From: an uncultured Glaciecola sp.
Lineage (GTDB): Bacteria; Pseudomonadota; Gammaproteobacteria; Enterobacterales; Alteromonadaceae
Length of the DNA stretch: 64,000 nt
NCBI GenBank assembly: GCA_947496235.1
Contig: CANMCE010000003.1
Coordinates: forward strand, 372,001 to 436,000
Direction of reading: 5' to 3'
Position numbers and translations under genes: made by a program. Numbering within the stretch: position 1 is the first letter of the stretch; each line of letters starts with the position of its first letter. The notes beneath the pieces were generated by a model. The model made no database searches and had not been told where the DNA came from. It was given only the letters and a program-made list of their open reading frames with translations. This document shows, in pieces, positions 1,996 to 45,734 of the stretch.

Positions 1996-3354
1996 TCACT
2001 TGGGGGTAAAACGCCCTAATTCATCTAGCCAATCATTTAACACATCGGCATCGTTAATAATGTCTAAGGGAATAGGCTTGTATTCTTCTACATCAAACTC
2101 GTTAGCGTATTCTTGCCAACTAACAATAGATTGAAGTTCGCTGTTAATTATTCCATTGCCTTCTTTTGCTGTTCCGCTTTTGACGTCGTTAAGAATTCTA
2201 ACATCTACTGAATCAGAGAATTTACCGTGCCGATTGCGATTTGCGCCAACTTCTTGCTGAGCTACAAGTTGATTAAAGCTATTCAAAGCTGAAACTGCTA
2301 GTTTGCCAACCACGTCAGACTTCACCTGGCTAGAGGGCGAAATTGGTACTTTACTTAAAAAGTTGGCTATACGTGCATCTATTATATTCGTGGAAAGTTT
2401 TTTATGGTTTTTTACTTCTACTCCGCGTCTATTCTCATTCGTCAGGTTTGGGTGTTGATACATAAAATTACCCTGCACAAATGCAACACCGTTGTTTTCT
2501 TTGTCTAGCTGAAAAAAGCGGACTGGGCCTTCCGCAGGACCCAACTTATAATAGTTATTGACTATGTTCGCGCGACCATTTTCATTTCCATATGTGGAAT
2601 TGTCTTTCCAGTTGTATATGACATTATTGTAAATTTCGACAAACTCTTCGCTTTGAGGGTACTTAGCGCCTAAACGATATCCATTAATACGAGGGTTTCG
2701 ACTACTGTGATGAGCGAGAACATTAGATAAAAAGCTGGCATTATTTCCTCCCCATATGCCGCCATAACCATGCTCGCCTTTAACATGATTTGCACTATTT
2801 AGACTTTCGCTAATGATACTGTGTTGTAAAGTGAAATTACGATTGTTGTAAAAAGAACCTACTTCGTCGCTAGCCCAACTTAACGAGCAATGGTCGATAA
2901 TAATATCTGACTGGTTTTTAGCATTTAGTGCGTCATCTTGAGCGCCTTTGATACCAGTTCTAAATCTCATGTAGCGAATAATGACTTGGCTTGCTTTTAT
3001 CTGAGTTTCTGCGCCTGTGATGACAATCCCTTTCGGCGAAGTTTGTCCCGCAATGGTTATAAAGTCATTTTTAATTTCTAATGGCTTGTACAGATTTATT
3101 ATGCCGGAGACATCAAAAACAATTACCCGGGGGCCCTTGGCTTTAATCGCGTGTCGTAAAGTCCCTGGTTTGGCTTTTTGGTTATCTTCTAATGAGGTTA
3201 CGACATAAACTTTTCCACCATATCCCCCAAGGGTGTAGCGTCCGTATCCCTTGGCACCATCAAAGGCTATACGCTGAGACGCACCACCCGCAAACAAAAT
3301 AGTGCTAAAAAATAACAGAAACACCAATACAACGAGTTTACCTTGTGATGCCAT
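1996..3354 (-). CDS. secreted pectate lyase, polysaccharide lyase family 1
   Basis: Encodes a 452-residue exported enzyme that should cleave polygalacturonate by beta-elimination. A hydrophobic signal segment (about 7-24, VVLVFLLFFSTILFAGG) is followed by a right-handed beta-helix of PL1 type: ASQVIIRYMRFR, DHCSLSWASDE (154-164, the usual Asp/His strand) and RNPRINGYR (219-227, catalytic Arg region). The ATG at 3354 is preferred over an upstream TTG at 3375 because AAAAGG sits seven bases before it. It diverges from the TonB receptor at 3686 and shares an intergenic region with two copies of the regulon palindrome, so it is probably co-regulated with the rest of the pectin genes. Confidence 0.88.
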   Translation of the reverse strand: MASQGKLVVLVFLLFFSTILFAGGASQRIAFDGAKGYGRYTLGGYGGKVYVVTSLEDNQKAKPGTLRHAIKAKGPRVIVFDVSGIINLYKPLEIKNDFITIAGQTSPKGIVITGAETQIKASQVIIRYMRFRTGIKGAQDDALNAKNQSDIIIDHCSLSWASDEVGSFYNNRNFTLQHSIISESLNSANHVKGEHGYGGIWGGNNASFLSNVLAHHSSRNPRINGYRLGAKYPQSEEFVEIYNNVIYNWKDNSTYGNENGRANIVNNYYKLGPAEGPVRFFQLDKENNGVAFVQGNFMYQHPNLTNENRRGVEVKNHKKLSTNIIDARIANFLSKVPISPSSQVKSDVVGKLAVSALNSFNQLVAQQEVGANRNRHGKFSDSVDVRILNDVKSGTAKEGNGIINSELQSIVSWQEYANEFDVEEYKPIPLDIINDADVLNDWLDELGRFTPK

Positions 3355-3546
3355 TTTAAAACCTTTTAATGCCAATGCTAAAACGCAAAGTACTTGTGTT
3401 TGCCTATGATGATTATCGCTAGCTACAGACTTTATTTACAAGCGATTTAACCTAAAAAATAGTATTTACGATAAGTAAAAATCACTTTACTTAATTTTGC
3501 ATGTTAATTTTTTGTTGACGCTATTAACATATCAATAATATAATCA

Positions 3547-3560
3547 TGCCACCGGTAGCA
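3547..3560. promoter_or_regulatory. LacI-type operator (TGCCACCGGTAGCA), site 1
   Basis: A 14-bp near-perfect palindrome starting two bases after the -10 hexamer TATAAT (3539-3544) of the receptor gene at 3686. Its ACCGGT centre is shared by five other intergenic sites in this window. The position fits repression by blocking transcription start. The cognate protein is inferred to be the LacI-family regulator at 41652. Confidence 0.8.
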
Positions 3561-3622
3561 ACACTTTTCAAGTCTTAGCAAATCAGAATGATACTTAAGC
3601 TCGCGATACATATGCACCCCAA

Positions 3623-3638
3623 TTGCCACCGGTGGCAA
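3623..3638. promoter_or_regulatory. LacI-type operator (TTGCCACCGGTGGCAA), site 2
   Basis: A perfect 16-bp palindrome in the leader of the TonB receptor gene, 77 bp (centre to centre) downstream of site 1. Two sites at one promoter would allow looping by a tetrameric or doubly bound repressor, or a roadblock; this is inference. Confidence 0.8.
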
Positions 3639-3685
3639 ATAACATATTATTAATTAAAAACCTTAATGGTGGGAGATAATTCCTA

Positions 3686-6661
3686 ATGAAGTATTTTAAT
3701 AAGGAAGTAATGACACTGACCTCTACCCTAGTGGCGGTTATGGGCATGTCAGGATCTGCATACGCTCTTCAGCAAAATACTGACTCAGAAGTATCTGAGC
3801 AACTAAAGAAAGAACAAACAGAAGAAACTGCGGAAAATGAACAGCAACAGGATGAAGAAGTTGAAGTTATTCTTGTTGAAGGGGTAAGAGGCGTAGATTT
3901 AAAAGCGCGAGACCTTGAAAGAGGTAAAGATGGATATAGCTCTATAATTGCAGCAGATGATTTAGGTAATTTTGTCGATCCGAATGTTGCAGAAGCGTTA
4001 CGAAGATTACCGGGTGTGACCCTTCAGCGTAGCGAAGGTGAAGGCAAATTTGTATCGGTTAGAGGTCTAGGTCCTGGGTTTGTATCTGTCAATATCAATG
4101 GCTCAGAAATGTCTGGCGTCGGTGAAGACCGGAAAGTCGGTTTAGATGCTATCCCTGCTGACATTTTGGGTTCAATTGAAGTATTAAAAACGTTAACGGC
4201 AGATCAGGATCTAAACTCCATTGGTGGCACTGTAAATGTGAAAGCGATTTCAGCATTCGATCGCGGCAGAGACACCTTAAAAGTTCGCATTCAAGATGCT
4301 TACAGTGACTTTAGAGAAGAGCATTCTCCTAAATTAAGTATCGATGGGACTTCTCTATTCTCAGATAGAACCTTTGGTATTGGGTTTGCCTTGTCCACTG
4401 AAAATAGAAAAACGCAAGTGGATGAAATACGTCATCATAGCTCAAATGAAATGAAATTTTATCAAGCTGATATAAGTGCGAGTGATGGACCAGAAATTCT
4501 CGCCCCATCTCAGCTTGAATATCGGCGTGAAATTGCCAACAGACAGCGCCGTGCAGCCTCTCTTAATCTTGAATACAGACCAAATGACAACGCATATTAT
4601 TATGTAAAAGGTAACCTAACCAAATATACAGATGAAGATATTGCCCTGCGTGAATTTTATGATTTTCAGGATGCTGGTAGTGTGGGTAATGGCGAAATTG
4701 CCTATGTCAACTCAGAGACTAAGGAATTTGTTTTAACCGATATTGATATTTTTCATCAGTATTTTATTCAAGGTGGAGATACCACAACAAGGAATTTTAG
4801 TATCGGCGGTGAAAACACCATTGCTGAAAGTTGGGTGATTGATTATGAATACGCCCAATCAAAAAGCAGAGATGAATCCCTAAATGATCGTAGAGTTCAG
4901 TTTCGAGAACGCGACAACATAGTGTTTGGTCAAGGCCTTAAAGATAACATAATTGGTTATGCGATTTCTCCAGAAGAAGCGGCCGCCTTAGGTGGTTTTG
5001 CATATGATCCTAACGATAGCATTTTCGGCACTTCAGGTTCGGGTGATGCTAGCAATTTGAGTAATTGGCAATTTGACAATCTATTTTTAGAAGACGGTGT
5101 TCGAGAAGACAAAATTAAAAACGGAAACCTGAATATCACCAGACACTTTTATGACTCTTCTTTTCTCAACTACATAAAAGTTGGAGCAGCATTTTCTGAG
5201 CGTACCCATTTTAGAGATAAAAATCGTTCGAGTTTTGAACCTGATGTAGCTGATTGCGGTGGCTCTCAGACCTGTATCGATGTGGTTAACTCTGTTCATT
5301 CTGATTATGCCAGCGCTATCCCTGAAAATAGTAATTTTTTCTATCCTTTTGTGAATCGTGATCAAATTGAATTCATGGTAGATAACGCATCAATCACGCG
5401 TGAAGGCTCAACCAGAAATGAAGTCTCAATTGACAGCACTAAAGAAGATTACACGTTGAATGAAGATACCAAAGCGGCTTACATTATGGCGCAGTTTCAA
5501 TTTGGTGACGACATGACTGTAATTACAGGCGTGAGATATGCTGAAACAGAGTTTTCCTCTACTGGATTTTTATCCCTTGAAAACGATGATTTTGAGTTTA
5601 ACGGAGTCGATCAAGGTAGCTTGGATATTGCTGTTCCACTTTCCGAAGCATCCATTGAATATAGTGAATTTTATCCAAGCGTCCATTTGAAATATGAGCC
5701 ACATGAAGACGTGCTAGTTCGAGGTGCAATTTGGACCAGTTTTACCCGTCCCTCATTTAAGCAAGCCCGTGGTTTCGCCAAGTTTGACAGTGATATTGAA
5801 TTATGTCCCCCGGGTAGTGATGACTGTGACGATTCACAAGGTAGCGCCAATATTCGACAATTACAAGACTATACCTTAGGACCCAACAATACATTGGATG
5901 TGGGTAATCCTAATTTAATAGCTATGACATCTGTTAACTACGATGCCTCTATTGGTTGGTATGCTGACGACGACTTATTTTTAGAAGCTGCCATTTTCTA
6001 CAAAGACATTGATAACTTTATCGTAGATGTCAGCGGCATACCGCGCTCTATTCAGGATTTGCCTTTATCATTACCCGTGTCTCAAATCACTGAGTTCGTT
6101 ATTCCACAAGACTTGTTTTTGAATGACATTAATATCACGTTGAATGGCGAAGACGCTAAAGTGTTGGGAATGGAATTAAGCTACAACCAATATTTTGAAA
6201 ATGGCTTTTTTATTCAAAGCAACCTAACCTTACTTGACAGTAAAGCGCAACTTGATAGAACGGTGCGAGGTGACAAAGTTCCACTTCCTGATCAAGCAGA
6301 CCTTACTGCCAACCTTTCAATTGGCTGGGAAAATGAAACCTATTCCGCCCGCGTTATTGGTAACTACCGTTCAGAAATATTAGAGGAAGTTGGCGCATGT
6401 CCAGAAGGCACTCCAATAAGTGCTGTCCGAGATTGTAAAATTTGGGCTGATCGCTACCAAGACGCCATAAACACCCTAGATTTTAAGTTTAGAGCCAAGA
6501 TTACCAAACAACTGAATGTGTACATTGATGCCATCAATATTACCGACGAGAGCGATTTACGATACTTCGAGGGTAATGAGTTAAGTGGCGGCAATATTCT
6601 TTACCAAAAAGAAACCTATGGTAGGACTTTCCAACTTGGTATGGATTACAAATTCTACTAA
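3686..6661 (+). CDS. TonB-dependent receptor (pectin oligosaccharide uptake)
   Basis: A 991-residue outer-membrane receptor. After a signal peptide (MTLTSTLVAVMGMSGSAYA) and an acidic Glu/Gln-rich linker (about 32-60), a TonB-box-like stretch VEVILVEGVRG leads into the plug domain (NVAEALRRLPGVTLQR, FVSVRGLGPGF), then a long beta-barrel ending in an aromatic residue (GMDYKFY). A GGGAGA ribosome site precedes the ATG. The substrate is inferred from context: divergent pectate lyase, downstream pectinesterase/pectate lyase fusion, and two regulon operators at its promoter. Probably cotranscribed with the following gene (87-bp gap). Confidence 0.9.
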   Translation: MKYFNKEVMTLTSTLVAVMGMSGSAYALQQNTDSEVSEQLKKEQTEETAENEQQQDEEVEVILVEGVRGVDLKARDLERGKDGYSSIIAADDLGNFVDPNVAEALRRLPGVTLQRSEGEGKFVSVRGLGPGFVSVNINGSEMSGVGEDRKVGLDAIPADILGSIEVLKTLTADQDLNSIGGTVNVKAISAFDRGRDTLKVRIQDAYSDFREEHSPKLSIDGTSLFSDRTFGIGFALSTENRKTQVDEIRHHSSNEMKFYQADISASDGPEILAPSQLEYRREIANRQRRAASLNLEYRPNDNAYYYVKGNLTKYTDEDIALREFYDFQDAGSVGNGEIAYVNSETKEFVLTDIDIFHQYFIQGGDTTTRNFSIGGENTIAESWVIDYEYAQSKSRDESLNDRRVQFRERDNIVFGQGLKDNIIGYAISPEEAAALGGFAYDPNDSIFGTSGSGDASNLSNWQFDNLFLEDGVREDKIKNGNLNITRHFYDSSFLNYIKVGAAFSERTHFRDKNRSSFEPDVADCGGSQTCIDVVNSVHSDYASAIPENSNFFYPFVNRDQIEFMVDNASITREGSTRNEVSIDSTKEDYTLNEDTKAAYIMAQFQFGDDMTVITGVRYAETEFSSTGFLSLENDDFEFNGVDQGSLDIAVPLSEASIEYSEFYPSVHLKYEPHEDVLVRGAIWTSFTRPSFKQARGFAKFDSDIELCPPGSDDCDDSQGSANIRQLQDYTLGPNNTLDVGNPNLIAMTSVNYDASIGWYADDDLFLEAAIFYKDIDNFIVDVSGIPRSIQDLPLSLPVSQITEFVIPQDLFLNDINITLNGEDAKVLGMELSYNQYFENGFFIQSNLTLLDSKAQLDRTVRGDKVPLPDQADLTANLSIGWENETYSARVIGNYRSEILEEVGACPEGTPISAVRDCKIWADRYQDAINTLDFKFRAKITKQLNVYIDAINITDESDLRYFEGNELSGGNILYQKETYGRTFQLGMDYKFY

Positions 6662-6754
6662 CCGAATTCGAAACACATATTAGATAAAAATAAACAACTA
6701 CAACTAGTTAGTTTCAAAAAAATATAGATTAATTGCATCCTAAGGAGGGTGGTG

Positions 6755-9700
6755 ATGAATCATAAATTAACATTATTAACAACGACTATGGCGACTGTAT
6801 TGTTAAGCGCTTGTGGTGGTGAGAGCACTACAAACGTGAAAGAAGCGCCTCCACCGGCGATTACCGGTCAGTTTGTCGACAGCCCTGTCGCTGGACTTGG
6901 ATATCGTACCGATAGCACGCCAAATGGCACAACTAATGCGAACGGAGAATTTTCTTATTTTAGAGGGGAGCAAATCACCTTCCATATTGGCGAATTTGAA
7001 TTTCCGGATGTACCAGGTTCTAGAGTTCTATCACCATTAGATATGTTTAATGCTGACACACCATTCAAGCAGCCTGTAGTGAATACTATTCGTTTACTTC
7101 AAGCTCTTGATATGGATGGTGACCCAAGTAATGGCATAGAAATTAGTCCAAATGCAGCATCGGCTGCTTCTATGCTCTTAGAAGATGGCCAAACGATTAC
7201 CCAATTTTTTGACCGGCCAACCGACGACTTTGCAGCCGATGTTGAACCTTGGTTAGCGGCAGCAGGTGGCGCAATGAGTACGTTAGCGCCCTTTGATTCG
7301 TCTATAGAGCACTTCGTAAATTATTTAGCCACCGAGTATGGTACTTTATTTGCCAATACTTTTGATACCGAGTTAATTAACGGGACCCTGTATTTCCCGC
7401 ATCTTGAAGGAAGTAACGCTGAACTTGATGTGTTCACTTTTACTCCCGCTGATACATCAGGTTTAAGTGGAACATACACGCAACTAGTTGATGACACCCA
7501 AGTTTCAGGTAGCTATGAGTTTGTCTTTGGTAGACGCGCTATCCTGCTAAGTTCCGAAAACCAAAGCCAATATATTATTGTGCGGTCGTTTAATACTACC
7601 AATGGCGTTTATAGTTTATGTGTTGAAGATGCACAACAAGGTTTAGCGACCGCAGTTCAACAATGTGACACTGATGAAGACCCAAAAGAAAATTTGTTAG
7701 TCACAGAGGAAGAGCAAGCTAATACCGAACTTGAGCAATTAACTGAAAGAGCAAACACAATAGAGCCAGCTTTATCAGAAGCCTTTGATACTGATACGGC
7801 GACATTTTTCACTTCGTCTTATAAACGCCTTAGTGATGATGTTAATTCTAATCCTATGTATTTTAAAACTGGCGGAAGCCCTGCCCTTGATCCAACATTA
7901 GGCCAACTGACCTTAGCTGGAGCTCGCTTTACCATTGGTAACGCAGCCAGTAATCCCGCCGCCCAAACCTCTGCCAATGATACGGTAGGAACTGGGATAT
8001 TTAATATTAGTGAAGGTTTCACTATTAGCTTTGATGTTATATCTCATACAAGTTCAGGTACCTTGAATTTGTATGTTGATAACAACACATCTTCACAAGG
8101 TAATTCTGTACATGGGGCTGCATCTAAATTCTTCGGACAGTCTATTTCTGAAGAAAACTTACCTACAGGTCAAAGATTTACCTACACCTATGTGCCAGGA
8201 ACTGATGTTACAGGTTTGCCAGCAAATGACCCAGACGCCCGTATATTAGATGCCAATGTGACCAATTCATTTTTCCAATTGAGAACTGATAGCAGTGGTG
8301 ACATTACAATTGACAACTTGGTCATTGAAACTGTTGCGGATGCAGTAGAACCTACTGAGCCGACAGAGCCGACGGAACCAACAGAGCCCACTGAACCAAG
8401 TTGGGGGCCTCAAGTCGCATTACCTTTCAGTGCAGATTTTATTGGTGTCACAAGCGATATATTTTCAACTGATTTTGCTTCGTTAGAAGACGCTAGCGGC
8501 GCGACTATTCCGCTTCTCAACCGTACAGGTGGATCCGTAACTGTGGTAGCGGATGGACTTCAAATATCCAGTGGTCGATTCACCATTGGCGACGCCGATC
8601 CAAACACAACAACCACTGGAGAGGATACCAGTAGCACAGGTGTGTTTGATTTAAGCCGTCCTTATAACGTGGTGATGGATATTGTTTCAGTAAGCGATCC
8701 TGACGGTGACAATAATTTCCAAATTTACGTAGACAACGATACTAGTAGCAGCGCCTCCTCGCCTAGTGGTTCAGCGTCGAAATTTTATAGTGAGTTAATT
8801 AACACTTTAACGCCAGGAACAACACTAACCGTACCTGGATTAATTGCTACTGAGCATAGCTTTATTCAATTACGCACCGAAAGCGGTGGTACTGTGGTTA
8901 TTAATAACTTACGCATTGAATATGTGAGCTCAGGCTTTAAGTGTGAAGACGAACCTGATCTTTATTACTGTGACGATTTCTCTGCTGAAGATACTAGCAA
9001 CTATCAGTTACTTTCGAATTTGACTAACACAGATGGTCCGCTTGGCAGTTTTGATTTCCTAAATGACGATGGAAATTCAGTGCTTCGTTACACAGCTGAC
9101 GGTCGTGGTGGCGAAATTCTATTACTCACTGAAAGTGCAATGGCAAATGTGCCTGATAGCGGTGATTATTTTGTAGAGGCGAGAATTCGTCCTCGTCAAA
9201 ACAGCACCACAGCGAATAAACACTTGTATTTAATGGGACGCTACGATAGCGAAGGCAATTGGTACGCTGGCGGATTAAATGTACAAAACTCTTCAAGCAG
9301 TACTCGCGCTGAAGTAGCTATCAGTATGGGCGGTTCAATTTCTCGTCCTGTACAAGCGCAAACCCCAATTTTATTGGGCGAAAAAGACGGTACTGATGGT
9401 GTTTGGTATACCACAAGATTCGAGATGATTGGTAGTGAGTTAACTATCTATGTCGATGGTGAGAAAATGGGAACTACAACAGAATCCACATTCTCAGCAA
9501 AAGGCTTAGCAGGGATCTTTACTAACAACCGTTCATTTGAACTTGATGACCTTAAAATCGGCGATCCAAGTGTTAAACCTGTTCAGCTTACCCTTGATTA
9601 TAAGTCACCGACTTGGGAGACCTCTACTACAGGTGATCCTCTAGTCATTAATGTGACAGCGGTACAGAACGACGGTACTACCGCAGATACGTTTAGCGCC

Positions 9701-12700
9701 AATTCTAGTGATTCAACTGTGGTTGCATTAGACGTACAAGGTAATGTAATAACCCTTACACCAATGGCTGCAGGCACTGCAACCATAACAGTAGTGTCAG
9801 GTTCAGACACATCTATAATGCGTACCATTGAAGTGGAGGTTGCCGAAGGTTTTGTAATGCCTGTTATTACCTATGGAGATATTAACTCAAAACTCAGTCC
9901 TGCTGCAGGTTCAAGTAGTCAATATGTAGATACTTCTATACGTTTAAGTTTTGATTCAGCACCAACCCTTGGTGATTTGGGTGAAGTACGAATTTACAAC
10001 GCAACCGATGATAGTCTTGTTGATATCATTCGTGTAGGTTCTGAAATTGATGCTTTAGGCTATCAAGGACAAGACAGAGTTCGTCGCCTTAACCTTGAAT
10101 CTATCTGGGTAGACGGTAATGACTTAGTTATCAAGCCCCACAATAGTATTTTAGAGTACGGCGCTACTTATTATGTAGTTATTGGCGAAGGTGTATTAGC
10201 AGATGCCACATTAAACAATATTCCGTTTGAAGGCTTAGGCGAAAACAGTAACTGGACATTTACCACTAAGTCTAGTCCTCCTAGCGGTGATATTGTCACT
10301 GTTGATGATGACGGTAATGCTGATTTTAGAACTCTTCAAGGCGCCCTGAACTATATGATGGAAACGGTTGCCAAAGATACACCAGCAAAAATCATGGTGA
10401 AAGATGGTCTATATAAAGAGCCTCTATACTTACGCAATAAGAATAAGCTTACCATTGAAGGTGAAAGCCAAGCCAATACTGTTATTGAGTTTACTAACTA
10501 TGAAAGTAAAAACGGTGGCTCAGGGTCGAGCGAAGCACCTGGCACTGGCACACCTGCTGGTGGTAGAAGCGTATTTTTGATTGAAGGTGCTGACCTATTA
10601 ACCATTGAAAGTCTAACCATTCGAAATACGCACATACGTGATAATCAGTACTCGAATCAAGCTGAAACCATGTACTTCAATAGTGCCGATCGATTGGTGC
10701 TTAAAGATGTAGCGCTATTTAGTGAACAAGACACCTTGCTTGTTAAAGGTTACGTATGGGTTTATCAGTCACTAATCGCGGGTAATGTCGACTTTATCTG
10801 GGGTTATCCAAATGTCGCACTATTTGAAGAAAGCGAAATCAGAACCATTGGTGATTCTAAAAATGGCGATCCAAATACGGATACTGCAGGCGGGTATGTT
10901 TTACAAGCTCGAGTACCGAATGAGAGTGACCCTGGTTTTATTTTCCTTAACAGTGAATTCACTAACGGACCTGGACCTCTCGGCAATGGTGTACTTGATA
11001 ATTCAACTTACATTGCAAGAAGCGGTGGTAATGCCAATTATTTTGATAATGTAACACTTATTAATAATAAATTTGGCAGCCATATAGCTACTAGTGGATG
11101 GGCAGTGCTAGGGGTGAATAACCAGCCAGCACCAAATCCAGCTGTACCTACTGCATTAAGTGGTTGGAGAGAGTATGGAAGTACTGACTTAGCAGGAAAC
11201 CCACTCGACCTTTCAGAGCGTGTAGGCGGCTATATTCTGGATGACACTGAAATTACTGGCTTAACCCAACGTAATGACATCTTCGCTGGCTATAACAATG
11301 GCGAAGGATGGGATCCTACGATTAGCAACGAACCAGTTCTTGGTAGCATCTTAGATGACAAAGGGTTTGCAGGTTATAACTTTGACCTTACTGGCGGTGC
11401 TGGTGGAATGGTTGTGACTGTAGACAATGGGCTTGATTTAATCGCTGCCTTAGAAGAAGCATCTGACGCTAATATGCCTATCACTGTTTACGTAGATGGT
11501 CGAATTACTGATGCAAATAGCGGTGGCCTAAATCGCTCCATCGATATTAAAGACATGGACAATGTGTCTATTATTGGTGTCGCCGATAGAGGTGAATTCG
11601 ATGGTATAGGTATTTCTATCAGACGTGCGAATAACATCATAATTCAAAACCTTAAAATTCATCATGTGCTCACTAGCGGCAAAGATGCTATTTCTATTGA
11701 GGGTGATAATGATGGTTCTACTACTAGCAATATCTGGATAGACCATAATGAGTTGTACAGTACTTTGGCAGTAGATAAGGATTATTACGATGGTTTAGTG
11801 GATAGTAAGAGCGGTGCGAAAAATATCACTATTTCGTACAACTACTTGCATGATCATTGGAAAGCCTCACTACACGGTCATACCGAAGATGATTCGAACA
11901 GCAGCAATACTGACCGGCTAATCACCTTCCACCACAACCGTTTTGAAAACATAGAATCTAGATTACCGCTATTCCGTTACGGTAATGGGCACCTTTACAA
12001 CAATTATTACAACAACATTACCTCTACCGGGATTAACTCTCGTATAGGCGCTGAGTTGTTGATAGAAAATAATGTGTTCGAAAACACCCAAAACCCTATT
12101 GTGTCATTTTATTCAGATGTCATTGGTTATTGGAATACCCGAGGTAATGTGTTTGGCACTGGCGTAACCTGGACGACCCCAAGTGGGAACGATGTTTCTG
12201 CTGGACCAGATGCAACACCTACATCTAACTATGAAGTACCTTATAGCTATCAGTTAGAAGATGCTGATGTAGTGAAAGCCAATGTGATTAATTTCTCTGG
12301 CGTAGGGAAAATAGACCAAAGTAATTTGGATATTCCACCCATCGATGGCGGCTCTCAAGGTACTGATGTTAGCTTGCCATACAGTGAAGACTTTTCTGCA
12401 GCGGATAGCGATGAGTTCTTCTCTGCTGAGTATAAGAGTTTGCCAGGAGATAACACACTTCCTCTTAACACCATCACAGGTGGCGGTAGTGGCATCAGTA
12501 TTAACGATGGTGCCATTACCCTATCAAGTGCTCGCTTCACCATAGGTGAGACAACCCCTGATGTTACAACAGCTAGTGGGGATATAAGTAGCAACGGCGT
12601 GTTTGATTTAAGTCGTGAATACAAAATACTCATGGATATAGTGAGTGTCAGTGACCCTGATGGCGACAATAACTTTATCATTTACGTTGATAACAATACC

Positions 12701-13393
12701 TCTGGTAGCAGTAACTCAATGCATGGTTCAAGCTCTAAGTTTTATTCAGAGCCGATTACTTCATTGACCCCAGGTTCAATCGAGATTGCGGGCTTAGTTG
12801 CCACTGAATCTTCATTTATCCAGTTACGAACTGAAAGTGGTGGTACAGTTGAAATCGATAACCTGCGTATCGAGTATGTGGGTCCTGCGGCGATTCTAGA
12901 GGAAGACTTTAATAATACAGAGGCAGATTTCTTTTCTGCTGACTTTAAAGGCTTACCAACTGATGACACCCAACCCATGTACGTTAGAACAGGTGGAACA
13001 GTTGAATTAACCGAGGGTGCACTTAGGATCAACAGCGGTCGATTCACTATTGGCCAAACCCAGCCTGATATTGAAACAGCGTCTACAGATACCAGTGCTA
13101 ATGGCGCATTGGACCTAAGCCAAAACTATCAAATAGTGATGGATGTAGTGAGTGTCAGTGACCCTGATGGCGATAATAACTTCTTTATCTACGTTGACAA
13201 CAATACCAGTAGTAGCAGTAAATCAATGCACGGCGGTGACTCGAAATTCTTCACTGCTGCGATAGTTGATATGACTACTGGCGAGCTAACGGTTCCTGGT
13301 TTCGTGGCAACTTCAACTTCTTTCTTACAATTACGCACAGAAAGCGGTGGCGAAGTAGTGATTGATAACTTACGAATTGTTCCAGTGGAATAG
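6755..13393 (+). CDS. giant multidomain lipoprotein: CE8 pectin methylesterase fused to PL1 pectate lyase
   Basis: A 2212-residue surface enzyme with a lipobox (VLLSAC, Cys near residue 20). Rough order: N-terminal domain of unknown type (30-320); a repeated beta module (about 340-530); a short Glu-Pro-Thr repeat linker (about 532-548); second module (549-727); a concanavalin/LamG-like domain (729-942); an Ig-like BIG2 domain (945-1032); a second Ig-like domain (1033-1175); CE8 pectin methylesterase (about 1178-1500, with QAETMYF, SEQDTLL and GNVDFIWG); PL1 pectate lyase (about 1542-1862, with IWIDHNEL and ESRLPLFR); then two more copies of the beta module (1868-2043, 2047-2212). The ATG at 6755 is chosen over two upstream GTGs because TAAGGAGG ends six bases before it. 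One protein would de-esterify and then cleave pectin at the cell surface. Confidence 0.88.
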   Translation: MNHKLTLLTTTMATVLLSACGGESTTNVKEAPPPAITGQFVDSPVAGLGYRTDSTPNGTTNANGEFSYFRGEQITFHIGEFEFPDVPGSRVLSPLDMFNADTPFKQPVVNTIRLLQALDMDGDPSNGIEISPNAASAASMLLEDGQTITQFFDRPTDDFAADVEPWLAAAGGAMSTLAPFDSSIEHFVNYLATEYGTLFANTFDTELINGTLYFPHLEGSNAELDVFTFTPADTSGLSGTYTQLVDDTQVSGSYEFVFGRRAILLSSENQSQYIIVRSFNTTNGVYSLCVEDAQQGLATAVQQCDTDEDPKENLLVTEEEQANTELEQLTERANTIEPALSEAFDTDTATFFTSSYKRLSDDVNSNPMYFKTGGSPALDPTLGQLTLAGARFTIGNAASNPAAQTSANDTVGTGIFNISEGFTISFDVISHTSSGTLNLYVDNNTSSQGNSVHGAASKFFGQSISEENLPTGQRFTYTYVPGTDVTGLPANDPDARILDANVTNSFFQLRTDSSGDITIDNLVIETVADAVEPTEPTEPTEPTEPTEPSWGPQVALPFSADFIGVTSDIFSTDFASLEDASGATIPLLNRTGGSVTVVADGLQISSGRFTIGDADPNTTTTGEDTSSTGVFDLSRPYNVVMDIVSVSDPDGDNNFQIYVDNDTSSSASSPSGSASKFYSELINTLTPGTTLTVPGLIATEHSFIQLRTESGGTVVINNLRIEYVSSGFKCEDEPDLYYCDDFSAEDTSNYQLLSNLTNTDGPLGSFDFLNDDGNSVLRYTADGRGGEILLLTESAMANVPDSGDYFVEARIRPRQNSTTANKHLYLMGRYDSEGNWYAGGLNVQNSSSSTRAEVAISMGGSISRPVQAQTPILLGEKDGTDGVWYTTRFEMIGSELTIYVDGEKMGTTTESTFSAKGLAGIFTNNRSFELDDLKIGDPSVKPVQLTLDYKSPTWETSTTGDPLVINVTAVQNDGTTADTFSANSSDSTVVALDVQGNVITLTPMAAGTATITVVSGSDTSIMRTIEVEVAEGFVMPVITYGDINSKLSPAAGSSSQYVDTSIRLSFDSAPTLGDLGEVRIYNATDDSLVDIIRVGSEIDALGYQGQDRVRRLNLESIWVDGNDLVIKPHNSILEYGATYYVVIGEGVLADATLNNIPFEGLGENSNWTFTTKSSPPSGDIVTVDDDGNADFRTLQGALNYMMETVAKDTPAKIMVKDGLYKEPLYLRNKNKLTIEGESQANTVIEFTNYESKNGGSGSSEAPGTGTPAGGRSVFLIEGADLLTIESLTIRNTHIRDNQYSNQAETMYFNSADRLVLKDVALFSEQDTLLVKGYVWVYQSLIAGNVDFIWGYPNVALFEESEIRTIGDSKNGDPNTDTAGGYVLQARVPNESDPGFIFLNSEFTNGPGPLGNGVLDNSTYIARSGGNANYFDNVTLINNKFGSHIATSGWAVLGVNNQPAPNPAVPTALSGWREYGSTDLAGNPLDLSERVGGYILDDTEITGLTQRNDIFAGYNNGEGWDPTISNEPVLGSILDDKGFAGYNFDLTGGAGGMVVTVDNGLDLIAALEEASDANMPITVYVDGRITDANSGGLNRSIDIKDMDNVSIIGVADRGEFDGIGISIRRANNIIIQNLKIHHVLTSGKDAISIEGDNDGSTTSNIWIDHNELYSTLAVDKDYYDGLVDSKSGAKNITISYNYLHDHWKASLHGHTEDDSNSSNTDRLITFHHNRFENIESRLPLFRYGNGHLYNNYYNNITSTGINSRIGAELLIENNVFENTQNPIVSFYSDVIGYWNTRGNVFGTGVTWTTPSGNDVSAGPDATPTSNYEVPYSYQLEDADVVKANVINFSGVGKIDQSNLDIPPIDGGSQGTDVSLPYSEDFSAADSDEFFSAEYKSLPGDNTLPLNTITGGGSGISINDGAITLSSARFTIGETTPDVTTASGDISSNGVFDLSREYKILMDIVSVSDPDGDNNFIIYVDNNTSGSSNSMHGSSSKFYSEPITSLTPGSIEIAGLVATESSFIQLRTESGGTVEIDNLRIEYVGPAAILEEDFNNTEADFFSADFKGLPTDDTQPMYVRTGGTVELTEGALRINSGRFTIGQTQPDIETASTDTSANGALDLSQNYQIVMDVVSVSDPDGDNNFFIYVDNNTSSSSKSMHGGDSKFFTAAIVDMTTGELTVPGFVATSTSFLQLRTESGGEVVIDNLRIVPVE
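7774..8337 (+). repeat. repeated beta module, copy 1 (within giant lipoprotein)
   Basis: Most divergent of four internal copies. It shares the landmarks RFTIG, LYVDNNTSS, SKFF and FFQLRT near its end with the other copies at about 8403-8930, 12361-12885 and 12898-13390. Family not recognised; a carbohydrate-binding role is inferred from the enzyme it is attached to. Confidence 0.65.
8403..8930 (+). repeat. repeated beta module, copy 2 (within giant lipoprotein)
   Basis: Shows SGRFTIGDADP, IVSVSDPDGDNNFQIYVDN and SFIQLRTESGG, almost the same as copies 3 and 4 at the C-terminus of the protein, although about 3.4 kb separates them. Confidence 0.75.
12361..12885 (+). repeat. repeated beta module, copy 3 (within giant lipoprotein)
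   Basis: Shows SARFTIGETTPD, SVSDPDGDNNFIIYVDNN and SFIQLRTESGG. Follows the PL1 domain directly and is itself followed by copy 4. Confidence 0.75.
12898..13390 (+). repeat. repeated beta module, copy 4 (within giant lipoprotein)
   Basis: Shows SGRFTIGQTQPD, SVSDPDGDNNFFIYVDNN and SFLQLRTESGG. It ends the protein. Confidence 0.75.
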
Positions 13394-13397
13394 CGCA

Positions 13398-13432
13398 GGC
13401 GACCATTTGATCAAATCAAAATCGGTCGCGCT
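13398..13432 (+). other. hairpin just after the giant lipoprotein gene
   Basis: Stem GCGACC/GGTCGC enclosing the palindrome ATTTGATCAAAT. No T-run follows, so it may protect an mRNA end or be an upstream part of the terminator at 13465; purpose unclear. Confidence 0.35.
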
Positions 13433-13464
13433 ATTCCGATAAGGATTTATCAAAACTAAACAAT

Positions 13465-13497
13465 AAACCAGTAGCTTTTGCTACTGGTTTTTTATTT
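13465..13497 (+). terminator. rho-independent terminator after the giant lipoprotein
   Basis: Stem ACCAGTAGC (13467-13475), TTTT loop, GCTACTGGT (13480-13488), then TTTTTA. It closes the receptor/lipoprotein transcript. The same stem sequence is used again at 14811. Confidence 0.85.
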
Positions 13498-13569
13498 CTA
13501 CACTTAAAATAAGTGAATTTTTTATCCAGTAGTTGCGTAACAAGTTAAAATCAAAAGGAGAAACTTATT

Positions 13570-14007
13570 ATGCAATTGTCCAACGTACTAAAAGTCTATG
13601 GGATCACTCTGATCGTTTATTTGTTAATGGATGCCATATGGTTAGGCATTGTTGCTCGACAAGACTATGTGGATGCTATTGGTTTTTTAATGCGTGAAGA
13701 TGTGCCTATTTGGCCATGGGTAACCTTTTACCTTTTGTACGTATTTGTCATCCTTAAGCTTTGTATATTTTGTAGCAACAAACCAAGCTTTTCTCGTGCT
13801 CTAACGCATTCGATACTCTTAGGCGCCGCAAGTTATGGTGCTTATAACCTCACCAATTACGCAATGTTAGAAAATTGGCCACTGAATATCACGATTTCAG
13901 ATTGGGTCTGGGGAACAGTGGTAACAACAACTTCGGCTATGGCGGGCTTTTTCGCGTATAAATTTTTTAATTCAAAATCCCAAACACTTGATTCAACACC
14001 TTCTTAA
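13570..14007 (+). CDS. DUF2177 family membrane protein
   Basis: A 145-residue inner-membrane protein with about four predicted helices (VYGITLIVYLLMDAIWLGIV, WVTFYLLYVFVILKLCIF, LLGAASYGAYNLTNYAML, VWGTVVTTTSAMAGFFAYKF). The sequence fits the DUF2177 family, whose function is not known. AAAAGGAG lies upstream of the ATG. It stands alone between two terminators with identical stems (13465 and 14811) together with the next gene. Confidence 0.75.
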   Translation: MQLSNVLKVYGITLIVYLLMDAIWLGIVARQDYVDAIGFLMREDVPIWPWVTFYLLYVFVILKLCIFCSNKPSFSRALTHSILLGAASYGAYNLTNYAMLENWPLNITISDWVWGTVVTTTSAMAGFFAYKFFNSKSQTLDSTPS

Positions 14008-14189
14008 CGATTTTATAGTCGCTACAGGACAGCCCGTTTCTGGGATTGTCCTGTGCTTGCCTCTCATGTTTTTGCAAAATGCCGATTAATTTGAACGATC
14101 GGTTTATTTGTTAAGACGCTTGGCACATTTTATCCTCGTACCTTTCTATACACTTACTCGCATCAAATTTCTACAATCAGGAAGTAATA

Positions 14190-14777
14190 ATGCATCAACT
14201 CAAATTTATCTTAGCCACACAAACGAGGATTCCGCCGAAGGTTAAATCTATCGGCTATGCAATCTTAGTATTATTAATGACAAATGTTAGTTTTTTGGCC
14301 GCCGCAGAAGAACCAGCGCCTTTTTGTGGGATTCATTCTCAGGATAATATAGCCCTTGAAGACATTGCGCCTACTTTATATTCCATAGTGTCTGGCGCAC
14401 CAGGCGAAGCCCGAAACTGGGACTTATTTAAGAGCCTGTTTGCAAACAACGGCACTATAACCCCTGTTTTTCATGAACAAGATAAACCTGTAATAGAACA
14501 GATGTCAGTTGCGTCTTTTATCGCCTTAAACGAAAGCTTATTTAATGACATTGGATTTTACGAAAGTGAGGTAGATAGCATGATCATTGAGGTTGGCCAT
14601 ATGGCAACCATAATAAGCCTTTACGAGTCTCGAGAAGCGCCAGGGCAGCCTGTTTATTCTACTGGTATAAATTCATTTCAACTCGTGAATGATGGTAATC
14701 GATGGTGTGTAATATCGGTGACTTGGGACAGTGACAAAGGCGGACACCCAATACCTTCTAAGCTGGCTTTGGACTAA
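14190..14777 (+). CDS. exported protein, possibly NTF2-like
   Basis: A 195-residue protein with an N-terminal hydrophobic export segment (about 20-38, SIGYAILVLLMTNVSFLAAA) and a small alpha/beta domain. The pattern (FKSLFANNGTITPVF, an acidic central helix, YSTGINSFQLVNDGNRWCVISVTWD at the end) recalls SnoaL/NTF2-like folds, but that is a guess from layout and not a recognised family. GGAAG precedes the ATG. It converges with the TonB receptor at 14873 over a shared bidirectional terminator. Confidence 0.55.
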   Translation: MHQLKFILATQTRIPPKVKSIGYAILVLLMTNVSFLAAAEEPAPFCGIHSQDNIALEDIAPTLYSIVSGAPGEARNWDLFKSLFANNGTITPVFHEQDKPVIEQMSVASFIALNESLFNDIGFYESEVDSMIIEVGHMATIISLYESREAPGQPVYSTGINSFQLVNDGNRWCVISVTWDSDKGGHPIPSKLALD

Positions 14778-30901: not shown

Positions 30902-33900
30902 ATGGCTAGAAGAAAGTTTGCCAAGACACAACTGGCAACAAGTTTATCATTAATATTAGGTGTTTCGATGTCGACACCGCTATTAGCTCAAGAAGATAGT
31001 AGCGCAGATGGCGAAACTGAAGTCATTCAGGTAACCGGTATTCGAGGTAGTTTACAAGAAGCAGCCTCGATTAAACGTTCATCCGCAGGTGTTGTTGACG
31101 CAATTTCTGCTGAAGATATAGGTAAATTTCCTGATACAAACTTAGCAGAATCATTGCAGCGTATTACCGGTGTATCGATAAGCCGAACTAATGGTGAAGG
31201 TTCTGAGGTTACTGTTCGTGGTTTTGCTGGCGGTAACAACATGATTACCTTAAATGGCAGAACCATGCCAGCCGCTATCACTTATGGCGCAGGCTCTGGC
31301 GCTGATGGTACGACTCGCGGCGGTAACACCCGTTCATTTGATTTTGCAAACTTAGCTTCTGAAGCCATTCGTGCTGTAGAAGTTTACAAAACCGGTAAAG
31401 CTAACATAGCCACTGGTGGTATTGGTGCAACCATCAACATCATAACCGCCAAGCCTTTAGATCAAGAAGGCTTTGTTGCCACTGCTGGGGTTAAAGCTGT
31501 AAACGATACCACGAATCGTACTGGTGATGATATTACGCCAGAAGTGTCGGCCATTGTAAGTTATGCAAACGATGATGCGACTTGGGGTGTTAGTGTTGCG
31601 GCTATCCACCAACAACGAGATTCTGGCTACACTGGCGCAACCGTAAACAACTGGAACATAGATTATTGGGATGACATTGCAGATCCTGATAGATTGTGGA
31701 ACAACGCAGATGCTAACTATGTAAATGCACCTGAACAAGGTCAGTTATATGCACGTCCGAATGATATCCGTTATGCGTTTTCTAATACTCAACGTACAAG
31801 AGATAATCTTCAGTTAAATCTTCAATTTGCACCTACTGATAATTTCACAGGTTCTATCGATTATACCTTTGCTGAAAACGAAATTGTTGAGCAACGTGGT
31901 GAAATTACCAACTGGCTTCAGACAGGTACCAATACTGATACAGTTGAATTTGATAACTCAGTTGTAAAAACACCAATTTACGTATCAGAAGTATATGCTG
32001 GCGGTATTGATGAAGGTTATGAGCAACAATGGCGCGAACAAACTAACACGTTAGATTCCATTGGTGTTAATTTTGAATATGCAGTCAGTGACGACTTTAC
32101 CATCATTTTTGATGCTCACGACTCAGAAATGCACAGCCGAGGCACAGGTCCTAGAGGTTCAGGTGAAATCGCAGTGGGTCTTGGTGCGCCAACAGTTACT
32201 GATCGCGAATGGTTCTGGGATGGTGAATTACCCACTTACTTGAACAGTTATGATGACAGTATCCGCGGTGCCAACAATAACGGACAAGTTGACGCAGGCG
32301 ATGTCGGCTCGTCAATCGCGCGTATCAGAAACGCATCACAAAAATCTACCATTACACAATTTAAATTAGACGCTGAATATATGTTGGATAACGGCCGCTT
32401 TGATTTTGGTATCGAAGCGCGTGAAATGGAATCGCGTTCTTTCCAAACTGCCGGTAACAACATCGCACTAGGTAACTGGGGTGTTGCTAATCCTGGCGAA
32501 TTTGGTGATTTGATTCAGCCATTCGATCTGCCTGGCGAATTTGATGATTACGGGGTAAGAGCTGGCGGATATGGCTTCATTGCAGATGCAAGAGAACTTT
32601 ATACTGCAGCTGAGAGTTTATATCCTGGTATTCCTTCTGGCACAGAAACCGCACTTTCATTTGACGATACCATCCAAGAAGACACGCTAGCAGCGTATGC
32701 TCAAGTTGCTTTAGATGGTGAAATTGGTGATATGTTCTTTAGCGTACTTACTGGTATTCGTTACGAAGAAACGGAAGTTACATCGACATCTTTGGTGGGT
32801 TCAACCTACTTCCAGTGGGAAGATAACAACGATATCATAGCTTATGTCGATGGAAGTGTTCCGCCTTCTCCTGCCAGTGCAGAAAACAAATATGATTTCT
32901 TACTGCCAAGCTTAGACGTAAAACTTGAAATTACTGATGATTTAATTGGTCGTTTCTCTTACAGTAAAACTATTGCTAGAGCTGGCTTAGGTAGCCTAGG
33001 TGTTTCTGCAAGTAACTTTGCTGGCGGTGGTGGTTCAACCTTGCTAGGTGCACAACCTACAGCTAACGCGTCGAACCCTGGTTTGCTGCCATTAGAGTCT
33101 TCCAACGTTGACTTATCTTTAGAGTGGTATTACGACCCCACTAGCTATGCATCTGTCGGATTGTTCCAAAAAGATGTGGTTAACTTCTTAGGATCTCGCC
33201 AAGTTGACCAAACCTTACTTGGTATTCGCGATGTTACTGGTGGTCCTCGAGCTCAAGCCGCGGCTCAAGCCTTGCAAGATCGTGGCTTTGCTGTTGACGA
33301 TACTTCCTTGTACGCAATGGCAGTATTGTTGAGTCAGCCAGGTGCCTTCCCGAACGGAGCTGACGACTACACAGGTACACCTGAGCAAATTCAGCAATTA
33401 GCAGAAACTGCAGGCTGGGACTTAAGAGCAAATGATTCAGATCCGCTGACGGTGTTTAGAACCAGCACGCCGGACAACAACCGCGCGGCCAAGATTTACG
33501 GTGCAGAGTTTGCGGTACAGCATTTCTTCGGCGAAACTGGTTTTGGTGTTCAGGCGAACTACACCATTGTACGTGGCGATGTAGGCTTTAATAACGAAGC
33601 TGATCCGAATGAATCTCAGTTCGCACTTGTGGGTTTAAGTGATACGGCTAACTTGGTTGCACTTTATGAAAAAGACGCATTACAAGCGCGTATCGCATTA
33701 AACTGGCGTGACGAGTATTTGGCAGAAGTTAACAAGGGTAGTTCGAATAACCCTCGTTATGTAGAAGCTTACACACAGATCGATATTAATGTTAGTTATG
33801 ATATTAGTGAAAATCTGACAGTATTCTTCGAAGGTTTAAACATAACCGAAGAAAATATTCGTGAACATGCGCGTAACGAAAGACAGTTATGGTATTTAAC

Positions 33901-33946
33901 TGAACTTGGTGCTCGTTACAACCTTGGTGCTCGATACAAGTTCTAA
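30902..33946 (+). CDS. TonB-dependent receptor (sugar uptake, paired with SapC/halogenase)
   Basis: A 1014-residue outer-membrane receptor. Signal peptide (ATSLSLILGVSMSTPLLAQ), the segment EVIQVTGIRGSLQEA, plug domain (NLAESLQRITGVSISR, SEVTVRGFAGG, GGIGATINIITAKP) and a barrel ending LGARYKF. This subtype is typical of marine Alteromonadales and Caulobacter sugar loci and is often followed by SapC, cupin and tryptophan-halogenase genes, as here. The AGCGCT palindrome 100 bp upstream suggests sugar control separate from pectin. A strong terminator follows, with the next gene 187 bp away. Confidence 0.9.
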   Translation: MARRKFAKTQLATSLSLILGVSMSTPLLAQEDSSADGETEVIQVTGIRGSLQEAASIKRSSAGVVDAISAEDIGKFPDTNLAESLQRITGVSISRTNGEGSEVTVRGFAGGNNMITLNGRTMPAAITYGAGSGADGTTRGGNTRSFDFANLASEAIRAVEVYKTGKANIATGGIGATINIITAKPLDQEGFVATAGVKAVNDTTNRTGDDITPEVSAIVSYANDDATWGVSVAAIHQQRDSGYTGATVNNWNIDYWDDIADPDRLWNNADANYVNAPEQGQLYARPNDIRYAFSNTQRTRDNLQLNLQFAPTDNFTGSIDYTFAENEIVEQRGEITNWLQTGTNTDTVEFDNSVVKTPIYVSEVYAGGIDEGYEQQWREQTNTLDSIGVNFEYAVSDDFTIIFDAHDSEMHSRGTGPRGSGEIAVGLGAPTVTDREWFWDGELPTYLNSYDDSIRGANNNGQVDAGDVGSSIARIRNASQKSTITQFKLDAEYMLDNGRFDFGIEAREMESRSFQTAGNNIALGNWGVANPGEFGDLIQPFDLPGEFDDYGVRAGGYGFIADARELYTAAESLYPGIPSGTETALSFDDTIQEDTLAAYAQVALDGEIGDMFFSVLTGIRYEETEVTSTSLVGSTYFQWEDNNDIIAYVDGSVPPSPASAENKYDFLLPSLDVKLEITDDLIGRFSYSKTIARAGLGSLGVSASNFAGGGGSTLLGAQPTANASNPGLLPLESSNVDLSLEWYYDPTSYASVGLFQKDVVNFLGSRQVDQTLLGIRDVTGGPRAQAAAQALQDRGFAVDDTSLYAMAVLLSQPGAFPNGADDYTGTPEQIQQLAETAGWDLRANDSDPLTVFRTSTPDNNRAAKIYGAEFAVQHFFGETGFGVQANYTIVRGDVGFNNEADPNESQFALVGLSDTANLVALYEKDALQARIALNWRDEYLAEVNKGSSNNPRYVEAYTQIDINVSYDISENLTVFFEGLNITEENIREHARNERQLWYLTELGARYNLGARYKF

Positions 33947-33959
33947 GTATAAGAACTCA

Positions 33960-33985
33960 GCACTGGTAACTTAAGTTGCCAGTGC
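33960..33985 (+). other. palindromic hairpin after TonB receptor
   Basis: GCACTGGTAAC pairs with GTTGCCAGTGC (one G-T pair). It sits just before the true terminator and may protect the mRNA end. Confidence 0.5.
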
Positions 33986-33995
33986 ATTGGCTATC

Positions 33996-34023
33996 AAAAA
34001 GCCGCTGATAAAAGCGGCTTTTT
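33996..34023. terminator. rho-independent terminator after TonB receptor
   Basis: AAAAAGCCGCT, loop of six, AGCGGCTTTTT. Strong stem and T-run. Readthrough or a separate promoter would be needed for the SapC operon that follows. Confidence 0.85.
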
Positions 34024-34132
34024 CAATTCTAATCAATAACTAGTAAGCTTGTTTCAAATGGGCATTATTGTAAACTGCTTTTTATTAACGGGAAGCAAAA
34101 TCAGCATTTAGTGGCCGAAGGATATTGTATAC

Positions 34133-34864
34133 ATGGCAAATCATGCGTTATTAAATAATATTACTCATAAAGACACCAAAGTCATTTCTCACTATGGAAG
34201 TCAGTATGGCGACAACCTAGCAAGTGTCTTAGTGTTTCCTACTGAATTTATAGAATTGCAAAAACATTACCCTATCTTCCTTCGACAAGACCAAGGATCG
34301 GGAAAGTATCAATGCGCTGTTCTCTTGGGCTTGGAAAAAGATGAAAATTTGTTTTTAGATGAGTCTCACCCTTCAGGCTGGAATGCTGATTATGTACCAG
34401 CCATAGTAAGTCGAGGTCCATTTCTTATTGGCTTTCAACCGCAAGAAGACTCAGATGAGCAAAAAGCCGTAATTCATATTGATATGGATCATCCAAAGGT
34501 CAATGAAAATGAAGGACAATCCGTATTCTTAACGCACGGTGGAAATAGTCCTTATTTGGAACATATATCTAAATGTCTGCAGGTAATTAATTCTGGTATG
34601 AACATGCAAGCCGATATGTTGGCAAAATTTGTTGAATTAGACCTAATTGAACCCGTTAACATCGATTTTGAATTGGCAAACGGTGAAAAGCGGCAACTTT
34701 CAGGTAACTTTACCATTCATGAAGAGAAATTATCATCTTTACCTGCGCAGAGCTTATATGATCTAAATAAAGCTGGGTATTTACAACTTGCTTTCGCAAT
34801 TATTTCATCCATGACCAATGTGAGAAAACTAATCAATTTAAAAAACTTACGCTTGGCGCAATAG
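34133..34864 (+). CDS. SapC family protein
   Basis: A 243-residue protein of the SapC family (HALLNNITHKDTKVISHYGSQYGDN, VFPTEFIELQKHYPIFLR, LFLDESHPSGWNADYVPAIVSRGPF). SapC was named from Campylobacter S-layer loci, but in marine Alteromonadales and Caulobacterales it sits beside TonB receptors, cupins and tryptophan halogenases; its role there is unknown. No signal peptide. It is 11 bp before the cupin gene, so these three genes form an operon. Confidence 0.82.
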   Translation: MANHALLNNITHKDTKVISHYGSQYGDNLASVLVFPTEFIELQKHYPIFLRQDQGSGKYQCAVLLGLEKDENLFLDESHPSGWNADYVPAIVSRGPFLIGFQPQEDSDEQKAVIHIDMDHPKVNENEGQSVFLTHGGNSPYLEHISKCLQVINSGMNMQADMLAKFVELDLIEPVNIDFELANGEKRQLSGNFTIHEEKLSSLPAQSLYDLNKAGYLQLAFAIISSMTNVRKLINLKNLRLAQ

Positions 34865-34875
34865 CACGGGGCAAC

Positions 34876-35910
34876 ATGTTACCCATAAGTAAAAAAGTCA
34901 AAGAAATTGAGATTGTCGAGCCGGGTCAAATTCCTGAAGACATAGATTCAAATCTTGAGCCTCTAATTTTAAGAGGTTTAGTAAAAGATTGGGATCTGGT
35001 TCACATAGGTAAAGAGTCAGATACAAAAACTGCGGCTCATTTGAAATCATTTTATAATGGTCGTCCTACTCTCACTTACTTTGGCAGTCCAGACTTGCTG
35101 GGGAAATACGGCTACAACGAAAACGCTACTGAACTCAACTTTGAAAAACGTAAAGCGCAATTAGATGAAGTCTTAGACCAAATTGTTAGCCATATCCAAG
35201 ATGAATCGCCACCCAGTATTTATATCGCTTCAAACGTTATTGATTTAAATTTTCCAGGGTTACGAAAAAACAATGACTTAGATATGTCATTCGCCACTAA
35301 GAATCCCAATTCAGAACCGCCAATTCCAAGTATTTGGATCGGTAATAAATCCATTGCGAGATGCCACTATGACGCCTCGGATAATATTGCTTGCGTGGTA
35401 AAAGGTGAGCGTCGCTTTATTTTGTTTCCGCCTGATCAAATCGAAAATTTGTATCCTGGCCCCTTATCGCCAACACCCGGCGGCCAAGCTATTAGCATGG
35501 TGGATTTACACAACCCAGATTATCTACAGCATCCGAAGTTCAAACAAGCGGTAGAGCATGGACTAGTTGCGGAATTAGCGCCCGGAGACGCTATCTTCAT
35601 TCCAAGTATGTGGTGGCATCAGGTAGAAGGGTTAGGGAATTTTAATATTCTGGTCAATTATTGGTGGAGTGCAGCCGAGCGATTTATGGGCTCGGCTATG
35701 AATGTACTTTATCATGCAATGTTGAGCCTGCGTGATAAACCTCCCCATGAAAAAGCCGCATGGAAGCATGTATTTGATTACTACATATTCAATAATCAAT
35801 CGCTACCAACTGAACATTTACCTGAAGAGTCCCATGGATTTCTTGAGCCCATGGACGAATTTAAATCTCGTCAGTTACGCGCCATGTTAATCAACAAATT
35901 AAATAGATAA
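34876..35910 (+). CDS. JmjC-like cupin protein (2-oxoglutarate dioxygenase type)
   Basis: A 344-residue cupin-8/JmjC-like protein. The first iron ligands HxD are in CHYDASDNIACVVKGERRF, and a later His lies in IPSMWWHQVEGLGNFNILVNYWW. Such proteins hydroxylate peptides or small molecules using Fe(II) and 2-oxoglutarate. Its place between SapC and a halogenase, with 13 bp to the latter, argues for joint modification of a shared substrate, but that substrate is not known. Confidence 0.82.
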   Translation: MLPISKKVKEIEIVEPGQIPEDIDSNLEPLILRGLVKDWDLVHIGKESDTKTAAHLKSFYNGRPTLTYFGSPDLLGKYGYNENATELNFEKRKAQLDEVLDQIVSHIQDESPPSIYIASNVIDLNFPGLRKNNDLDMSFATKNPNSEPPIPSIWIGNKSIARCHYDASDNIACVVKGERRFILFPPDQIENLYPGPLSPTPGGQAISMVDLHNPDYLQHPKFKQAVEHGLVAELAPGDAIFIPSMWWHQVEGLGNFNILVNYWWSAAERFMGSAMNVLYHAMLSLRDKPPHEKAAWKHVFDYYIFNNQSLPTEHLPEESHGFLEPMDEFKSRQLRAMLINKLNR

Positions 35911-35923
35911 AGAGAGTTTAGCA

Positions 35924-38657: not shown

Positions 38658-38701
38658 GGTTTTCAACTCTTTTATTTGCTGTCTACATATATTTATTGAA
38701 T

Positions 38702-38737
38702 AATATATTGACAAATGCCACCGGTGGCAATTATTTT
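38702..38737. promoter_or_regulatory. divergent promoters with shared operator (TGCCACCGGTGGCA), site 3
   Basis: A 14-bp perfect palindrome at 38716-38729. To the minus side, TTGCCA (inside the operator), 17 bp, TATATT (38702-38707) fits a promoter for the DUF4861 gene. To the plus side, TTGACA (38708-38713), 18 bp, TATTTT fits a promoter for the TRAP operon with the operator in the spacer. One bound repressor would silence both. Confidence 0.75.
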
Positions 38738-39788: not shown

Positions 39789-39789
39789 C

Positions 39790-41576: not shown

Positions 41577-41651
41577 AATGCCCATCAAAGACGTTTTAAT
41601 TATGATACTATTCAGCTGCTATAGCCGCTTGTTTACGGAAGAATAATAAGA

Positions 41652-42668: not shown

Positions 42669-42681
42669 ATGTTAATAAAAG

Positions 42682-44301: not shown

Positions 44302-44313
44302 GAAGAAACAATA

Positions 44314-45729: not shown

Positions 45730-45734
45730 TTAGC

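Follow-up and report, generated by a model that had tools for sequence, protein, structure and literature searches.

The pectin-binding family CBM77, found as an accessory module of pectate lyases, binds homogalacturonan, and to our knowledge few homogalacturonan-specific binding modules are known. Among the enzymes, PelA of Pseudoalteromonas haloplanktis ANT/505 is said to be a large CE8-PL1 pectate lyase of a pectin pathway, as Hehemann et al. reportedly described in 2017. A locus of P. haloplanktis ATCC 14393 (L059) has the domain order described here, with three modules. Pd5_PL1 is a published protein that has PL1 and CE8 domains together with a lipobox, and its authors suggested that it works on the cell surface; the paper names only the CE8 and PL1 domains and no module (PMC7953866).

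The window analyzed here is a stretch of 64,000 nt from an uncultured Glaciecola sp. (GCA_947496235.1, contig CANMCE010000003.1, positions 372,001-436,000, forward strand). It encodes an orthologue of Pd5_PL1 (WP_108605272.1), which comes from Saccharobesus litoralis strain CCB-QB4, previously classified as Catenovulum sp. The two proteins share the same domain order, each is a single lipobox protein with a CE8 and a PL1 domain, and both genes have a TonB-dependent receptor gene directly upstream. Both chains also contain the module, of which Pd5_PL1 has three copies. The identity is 42.9% over the aligned part. Since Pd5_PL1 has already been published, the CE8-PL1 enzyme architecture is known, and what is new is confined to the module family.

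Domain organization of the lipoprotein

The gene at 6755-13393 on the + strand is an intact open reading frame of 2212 codons for amino acids, with the Shine-Dalgarno sequence AGGAGG (6743-6748) located 6 nt 5' of the ATG at 6755. A lipobox, LSAC, is formed by residues 17-20 (6803-6814). The next residue, at position +2 of the lipoprotein, is Gly, so that the Asp that causes retention in the inner membrane is absent. A comparable lipobox is found near the N-terminus in nearly all intact orthologues. The motif places the 2212-aa protein in the envelope but does not prove that it is exposed on the outside of the cell, as it may be.

The N-terminal domain (residues 36-338, 6860-7768) was modeled by AlphaFold2 at a pLDDT of 93.1. 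It is not assigned to a Pfam family, and a Pfam search found no match common to its members; its second half resembles lipocalin-type barrels in weak fold matches (Z 7-9). After the first two module copies comes a LamG/ConA-like domain (residues 729-940, 8939-9574) that has sub-threshold matches to PF06439 (0.0016) and PF13385 (0.0042) and is conserved in orthologues. This domain is a second candidate sugar-binding domain. It is followed by an Ig-like region (residues 941-1160, 9575-10234), for which the Big_2 match is sub-threshold (0.98) and the matches among PDB sequences include phage Ig-type domains.

The CE8 pectin methylesterase domain spans residues of about 1166-1500 (10250-11254) and is recognized by NCBIfam PemA (2.4e-13) and by PDB 2ntb, the PemA of Dickeya (6e-12); in a Pfam search of the 2212-aa protein it was not scored by Pfam's own pectinesterase model. 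Residues Q1302, Q1325, D1326 and D1346 align with the catalytic residues of Dickeya PemA, R1422 is the putative catalytic Arg assigned by motif, and all five are invariant across 36 relatives. The PL1 pectate lyase domain (residues 1531-1856, 11345-12322) matches PF00544 (1.5e-34) and PDB 7xks (3.9e-83). Its residues D1679, R1736 and R1741, which were aligned to solved pectate lyases, are invariant across 39 relatives. Homology together with a Gln/Asp/Asp/Arg catalytic set assigns the first of these domains to CE8. For the second, with beta-helix homology, a Ca-binding Asp and a catalytic Arg region, the assignment to PL1 is certain. The first-pass annotation had described a single lipidated chain that carries both enzymes, and the intact reading frame, the lipobox, the two homologous domains and the retained catalytic residues all agree with it.

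Copies of the module and their age

Four copies of one module of ~170 aa were found by the module profile with E values from 7e-87 to 2e-70, the number that had been given for the chain, and a profile search of the genome found no copies besides these four. M1 (residues 339-530, 7769-8344) is the most divergent copy. It is joined by an EPT-repeat linker (8348-8398) to M2 (residues 556-728, 8420-8938). M3 (residues 1873-2045, 12371-12889) and M4 (residues 2046-2212, 12890-13390) come after PL1. It had been proposed that two copies flank the N-terminal region and two end the protein. M3 and M4 do close the protein, but M1 and M2 adjoin each other, lying after the N-terminal domain of ~300 aa and before the LamG-like domain. 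The motifs said to be shared by the copies fared similarly. RFTIG is present in all four, at residues 391, 608, 1927 and 2096, but DPDGDNNF occurs only at residues 648, 1967 and 2136, and M1 therefore lacks it.

The first-pass annotation also explained the similarity of M2, M3 and M4 by recent duplication or gene conversion. In favor of this, long identical motifs are common to these three copies, and the frequency at which identical residues share a codon is slightly raised (0.45-0.51, compared with 0.37-0.40 for random choice). However, the three copies are only 54-60% identical as protein and 56-62% as DNA, the third positions of their codons match at only 40-44%, and in a tree of 59 copies the modules group by position. 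M1 groups with M1 of other genera (support 0.999) and M2 with M2 (0.977), M3 groups with copy 4 of an Aliiglaciecola locus, L060 (0.94), and M4 with copy 5 of the same locus (0.997). M3 is 76% identical to copy 4 of L060 and 60% identical to M2. Because the copies group by position across genera, the duplications predate these genera. A recent origin of the copies in the window is refuted by the positional tree and the codon comparison and is hardly credible. Late lineage-specific duplications were seen elsewhere in the same tree, in L049, L032 and L034.

Fold and possible ligands of the module

No Pfam or NCBIfam family is common to 85 diverse members of the module. A search of PDB sequences with the module profile gave no significant match, the best having an E value of 0.95 and being unrelated, and a literature search found no paper describing the module. 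The view that the module is undescribed therefore holds as far as Pfam, NCBIfam and PDB sequences go.

Isolated M3 was modeled by AlphaFold2 as a jelly-roll beta-sandwich at a mean pLDDT of 97.5, which is a scaffold of the CBM4/6/29/61 type. The top matches of this model in VIA-align are reelin and MAM (meprin) domains. These have the highest structural Z (10-11) but are animal protein-interaction domains of about 10% identity. The next matches are porphyran-binding 8xmz (Z 10.0, 124 residues aligned) and CBM29 (9.7), followed by hyaluronan-binding 4d0q (9.3), CBM4 (8.9), CBM61 (8.9) and CBM6 (8.8). These jelly-roll CBMs share a beta-sandwich with the module (Z 8.8-10.0) and are accessory to polysaccharide-degrading enzymes; they differ from it in sequence, the identity to M3 being 16% or less, and are not matched by its profile in PDB sequences. 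CBM77 and other known pectin-binding families are absent among the 50 fold matches listed, and the profile search of PDB sequences found no similarity between CBM77 and the module. Since domains that do not bind sugar rank first, sugar binding cannot be concluded from the fold by itself. As modeled, it is a common jelly roll that permits but does not prove such a function.

Eight polar residues are near-invariant in the 85 copies (R55, Y105, D107, N108, N109, H118, Q151 and R153 in module numbering). In the predicted secondary structure they sit in or beside three strands and one long loop. A uronate ligand would be a plausible partner for the two arginines among them; the polar residues could instead be structural or metal-binding.

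It is conceivable that the modules are MAM- or reelin-like domains that mediate protein-protein contacts or act as spacers, docking the enzyme on the receptor or extending it from the membrane. Reelin and meprin MAM domains being the best structural matches, and the receptor being always adjacent in testable Alteromonadales loci, are in keeping with this role. However, the module also occurs in Gram-positive bacteria, which lack TonB-dependent receptors, once beside an S-layer anchor, and a spacer would not usually keep so many polar residues near-invariant. A docking or spacer role thus seems distinctly unlikely. It is unlikely as well that the modules bind a different polymer found together with pectin, which could be the side chains of rhamnogalacturonan, a uronate polymer from algae or envelope glycans of the bacterium itself. 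Ligands of the related scaffold are diverse and include porphyran, hyaluronan and galactan, and M1, M2, M3 and M4, which fall into distinct positional clades, could have distinct ligands, but across phyla the modules accompany PL1 and PL9 enzymes that cleave homogalacturonan. The module is a discrete unit that is found beside PL1, PL9 and CE8 and that folds in isolation in the AlphaFold2 model. It is probably a new carbohydrate-binding family, one that may bind pectin, although CAZy or dbCAN might already list it.

Neighboring genes and proposed mechanism

A TonB-dependent receptor of 991 aa is encoded at 3686-6661 on the + strand, 93 nt upstream of the lipoprotein gene (PF00593/PF07715; TIGR01782 at 477.5 bits with a cutoff of 310). 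In all testable loci of Alteromonadales and Pseudoalteromonas, those with upstream DNA in the examined sequence, the gene immediately before the module gene encodes a homologue of this receptor. The chain was also found on two annotated plasmids, one of them from S. litoralis CCB-QB4 and carrying the Pd5_PL1 gene, and on both a TonB-dependent receptor gene lies immediately 5' of it.

Several other genes of the window are related to pectin. A divergent gene on the - strand (1996-3375) encodes a PelZ-like pectate lyase of 459 aa that matches PDB 9buj (1.5e-116) and, below the cutoff of that model, NF041900 PelZ (7.9e-32). Genes for uronate uptake and catabolism occupy 38805-48109 on the + strand and encode TRAP DctPQM, a LacI regulator, a member of the altronate dehydratase family, UxaC, a member of the mannitol/tagaturonate dehydrogenase family and a PfkB kinase. 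A GH88/105-type unsaturated uronyl hydrolase (PF07470, 9.6e-106) and a GH28 polygalacturonase (PF00295, 1.5e-34) are encoded at 55702-58344, also on the + strand. The presence of the PelZ-like lyase, the TRAP and uronate genes, GH88/105 and GH28 in the window supports pectin as the substrate.

It is proposed that the outer-membrane lipoprotein is a one-chain pectin workstation. The CBM-like beta-sandwiches M1-M4 would keep homogalacturonan bound on the outside of the cell. CE8 would strip methyl esters from it, and the stretches exposed in this way would be handed over to the neighboring PL1 and cut by beta-elimination. The oligogalacturonides released would be taken up through the TonB-dependent receptor, whose gene ends 93 nt before that of the lipoprotein, and broken down by the products of the uronate genes. 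Computation shows that the gene is intact, that its product has a lipobox, the stated order of domains and the catalytic residues, that the pairing with a receptor is conserved, what fold the module takes, and that the module keeps company with pectate lyases. Taken as a whole, from the holding of pectin by the modules through demethylation and cleavage to import, this course of events is likely. A compact and confidently modeled module would serve as a useful probe of pectin methylation, and it would show how marine bacteria limit the loss of enzyme and product by diffusion.

Other genes of the window include another TonB-dependent receptor gene and, after it, genes of the SapC, Cupin_8 and tryptophan-halogenase families (30902-37402). 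Facing the uronate genes is a gene (37458-38714, - strand) for a DUF4861 protein that weakly matches the BT3233-type polysaccharide-utilization family. Downstream of the lipoprotein gene, an ORF of 195 aa (14190-14777) has only a sub-threshold match to SnoaL and no family match.

Distribution of the chain

A scan for module loci that used one genome per species gave 44 loci. Comparison of domain orders in these relatives showed the same CE8-PL1 chain in most of them, with mostly 2-5 modules before the LamG-like domain and 0-2 after PL1. The CE8-PL1 lipoprotein is present in some 35 genomes of Alteromonadales and Pseudoalteromonas. In a sample of the window's family, the module was found in 35 of 395 genomes and in 14 of 52 genera. 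In the genus of the window, the 12 other genomes all lack the module and also a CE8-PL1 homologue at E 1e-10, which suggests that the gene was either acquired by transfer or lost several times. A broad search of Gammaproteobacteria found the module in one of 369 genomes, that of the window itself, and a search of the Paenibacillus family found it in one of 104, the query genome. A match of 0.0093 in another genome (G018, locus L009) was dropped, as the host protein is unlike the module.

Two variants of the chain were also seen. In Catenovulum agarivorans (L050:6873-14852) the LamG-Ig-CE8 block occurs twice in tandem in one chain of 2660 aa. In Alteromonas oceani (L028:6852-13118) the copy is interrupted by one stop codon that lies after M1 and before M2, either a sequencing error or the sign of a pseudogene.

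The module outside the chain

In Microbulbifer aggregans (L061:3339-14688) the parts of the chain are encoded by separate adjacent genes. Three of them encode lipoproteins, with the domain orders LamG-Ig-CE8 (3339-6602), PL1-module (6624-8483) and module-fn3-module (8946-11570). They are followed by the gene of a TonB-dependent receptor that was named from its sequence and not by profile search (11620-14688). This is an unfused version of the chain, and the chain of the Alteromonadales looks like a fusion of such neighbors.

Two loci (L054:4875-9326 and L055:5406-9857) encode a lipoprotein of 1484 residues that consists of the N-terminal domain and six modules and has no enzyme. Both genes sit directly downstream of a TonB-dependent receptor gene, and no remnant of LamG, Ig or CE8 is detectable in either locus. 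These lipoproteins are candidate surface glycan-binding proteins. It is possible, though rather doubtful, that the module defines a new carbohydrate-binding family that is specific for pectin and shared by Gammaproteobacteria and Bacillota and that, in some Alteromonadales, the enzyme-free six-module lipoprotein beside the TonB-dependent receptor is a glycan-capture partner with a SusD-like role, as in Bacteroidota. The six-module lipoproteins offer a way to test whether Gammaproteobacteria have dedicated surface glycan-binding proteins that work with TonB receptors.

In Gram-positive bacteria the module accompanies unrelated pectate lyases. It is found with PL1 and S-layer anchors in Paenibacillus (L064), with PL9 (1ru4, 2.2e-76) and a CBM6/35-type module in Evansella (L063), and with PL1 in a Bacillota MAG (L057). 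A secreted protein of 193 aa encoded on the - strand in the same MAG (L083:1498-2079) consists of a signal peptide and a single module.
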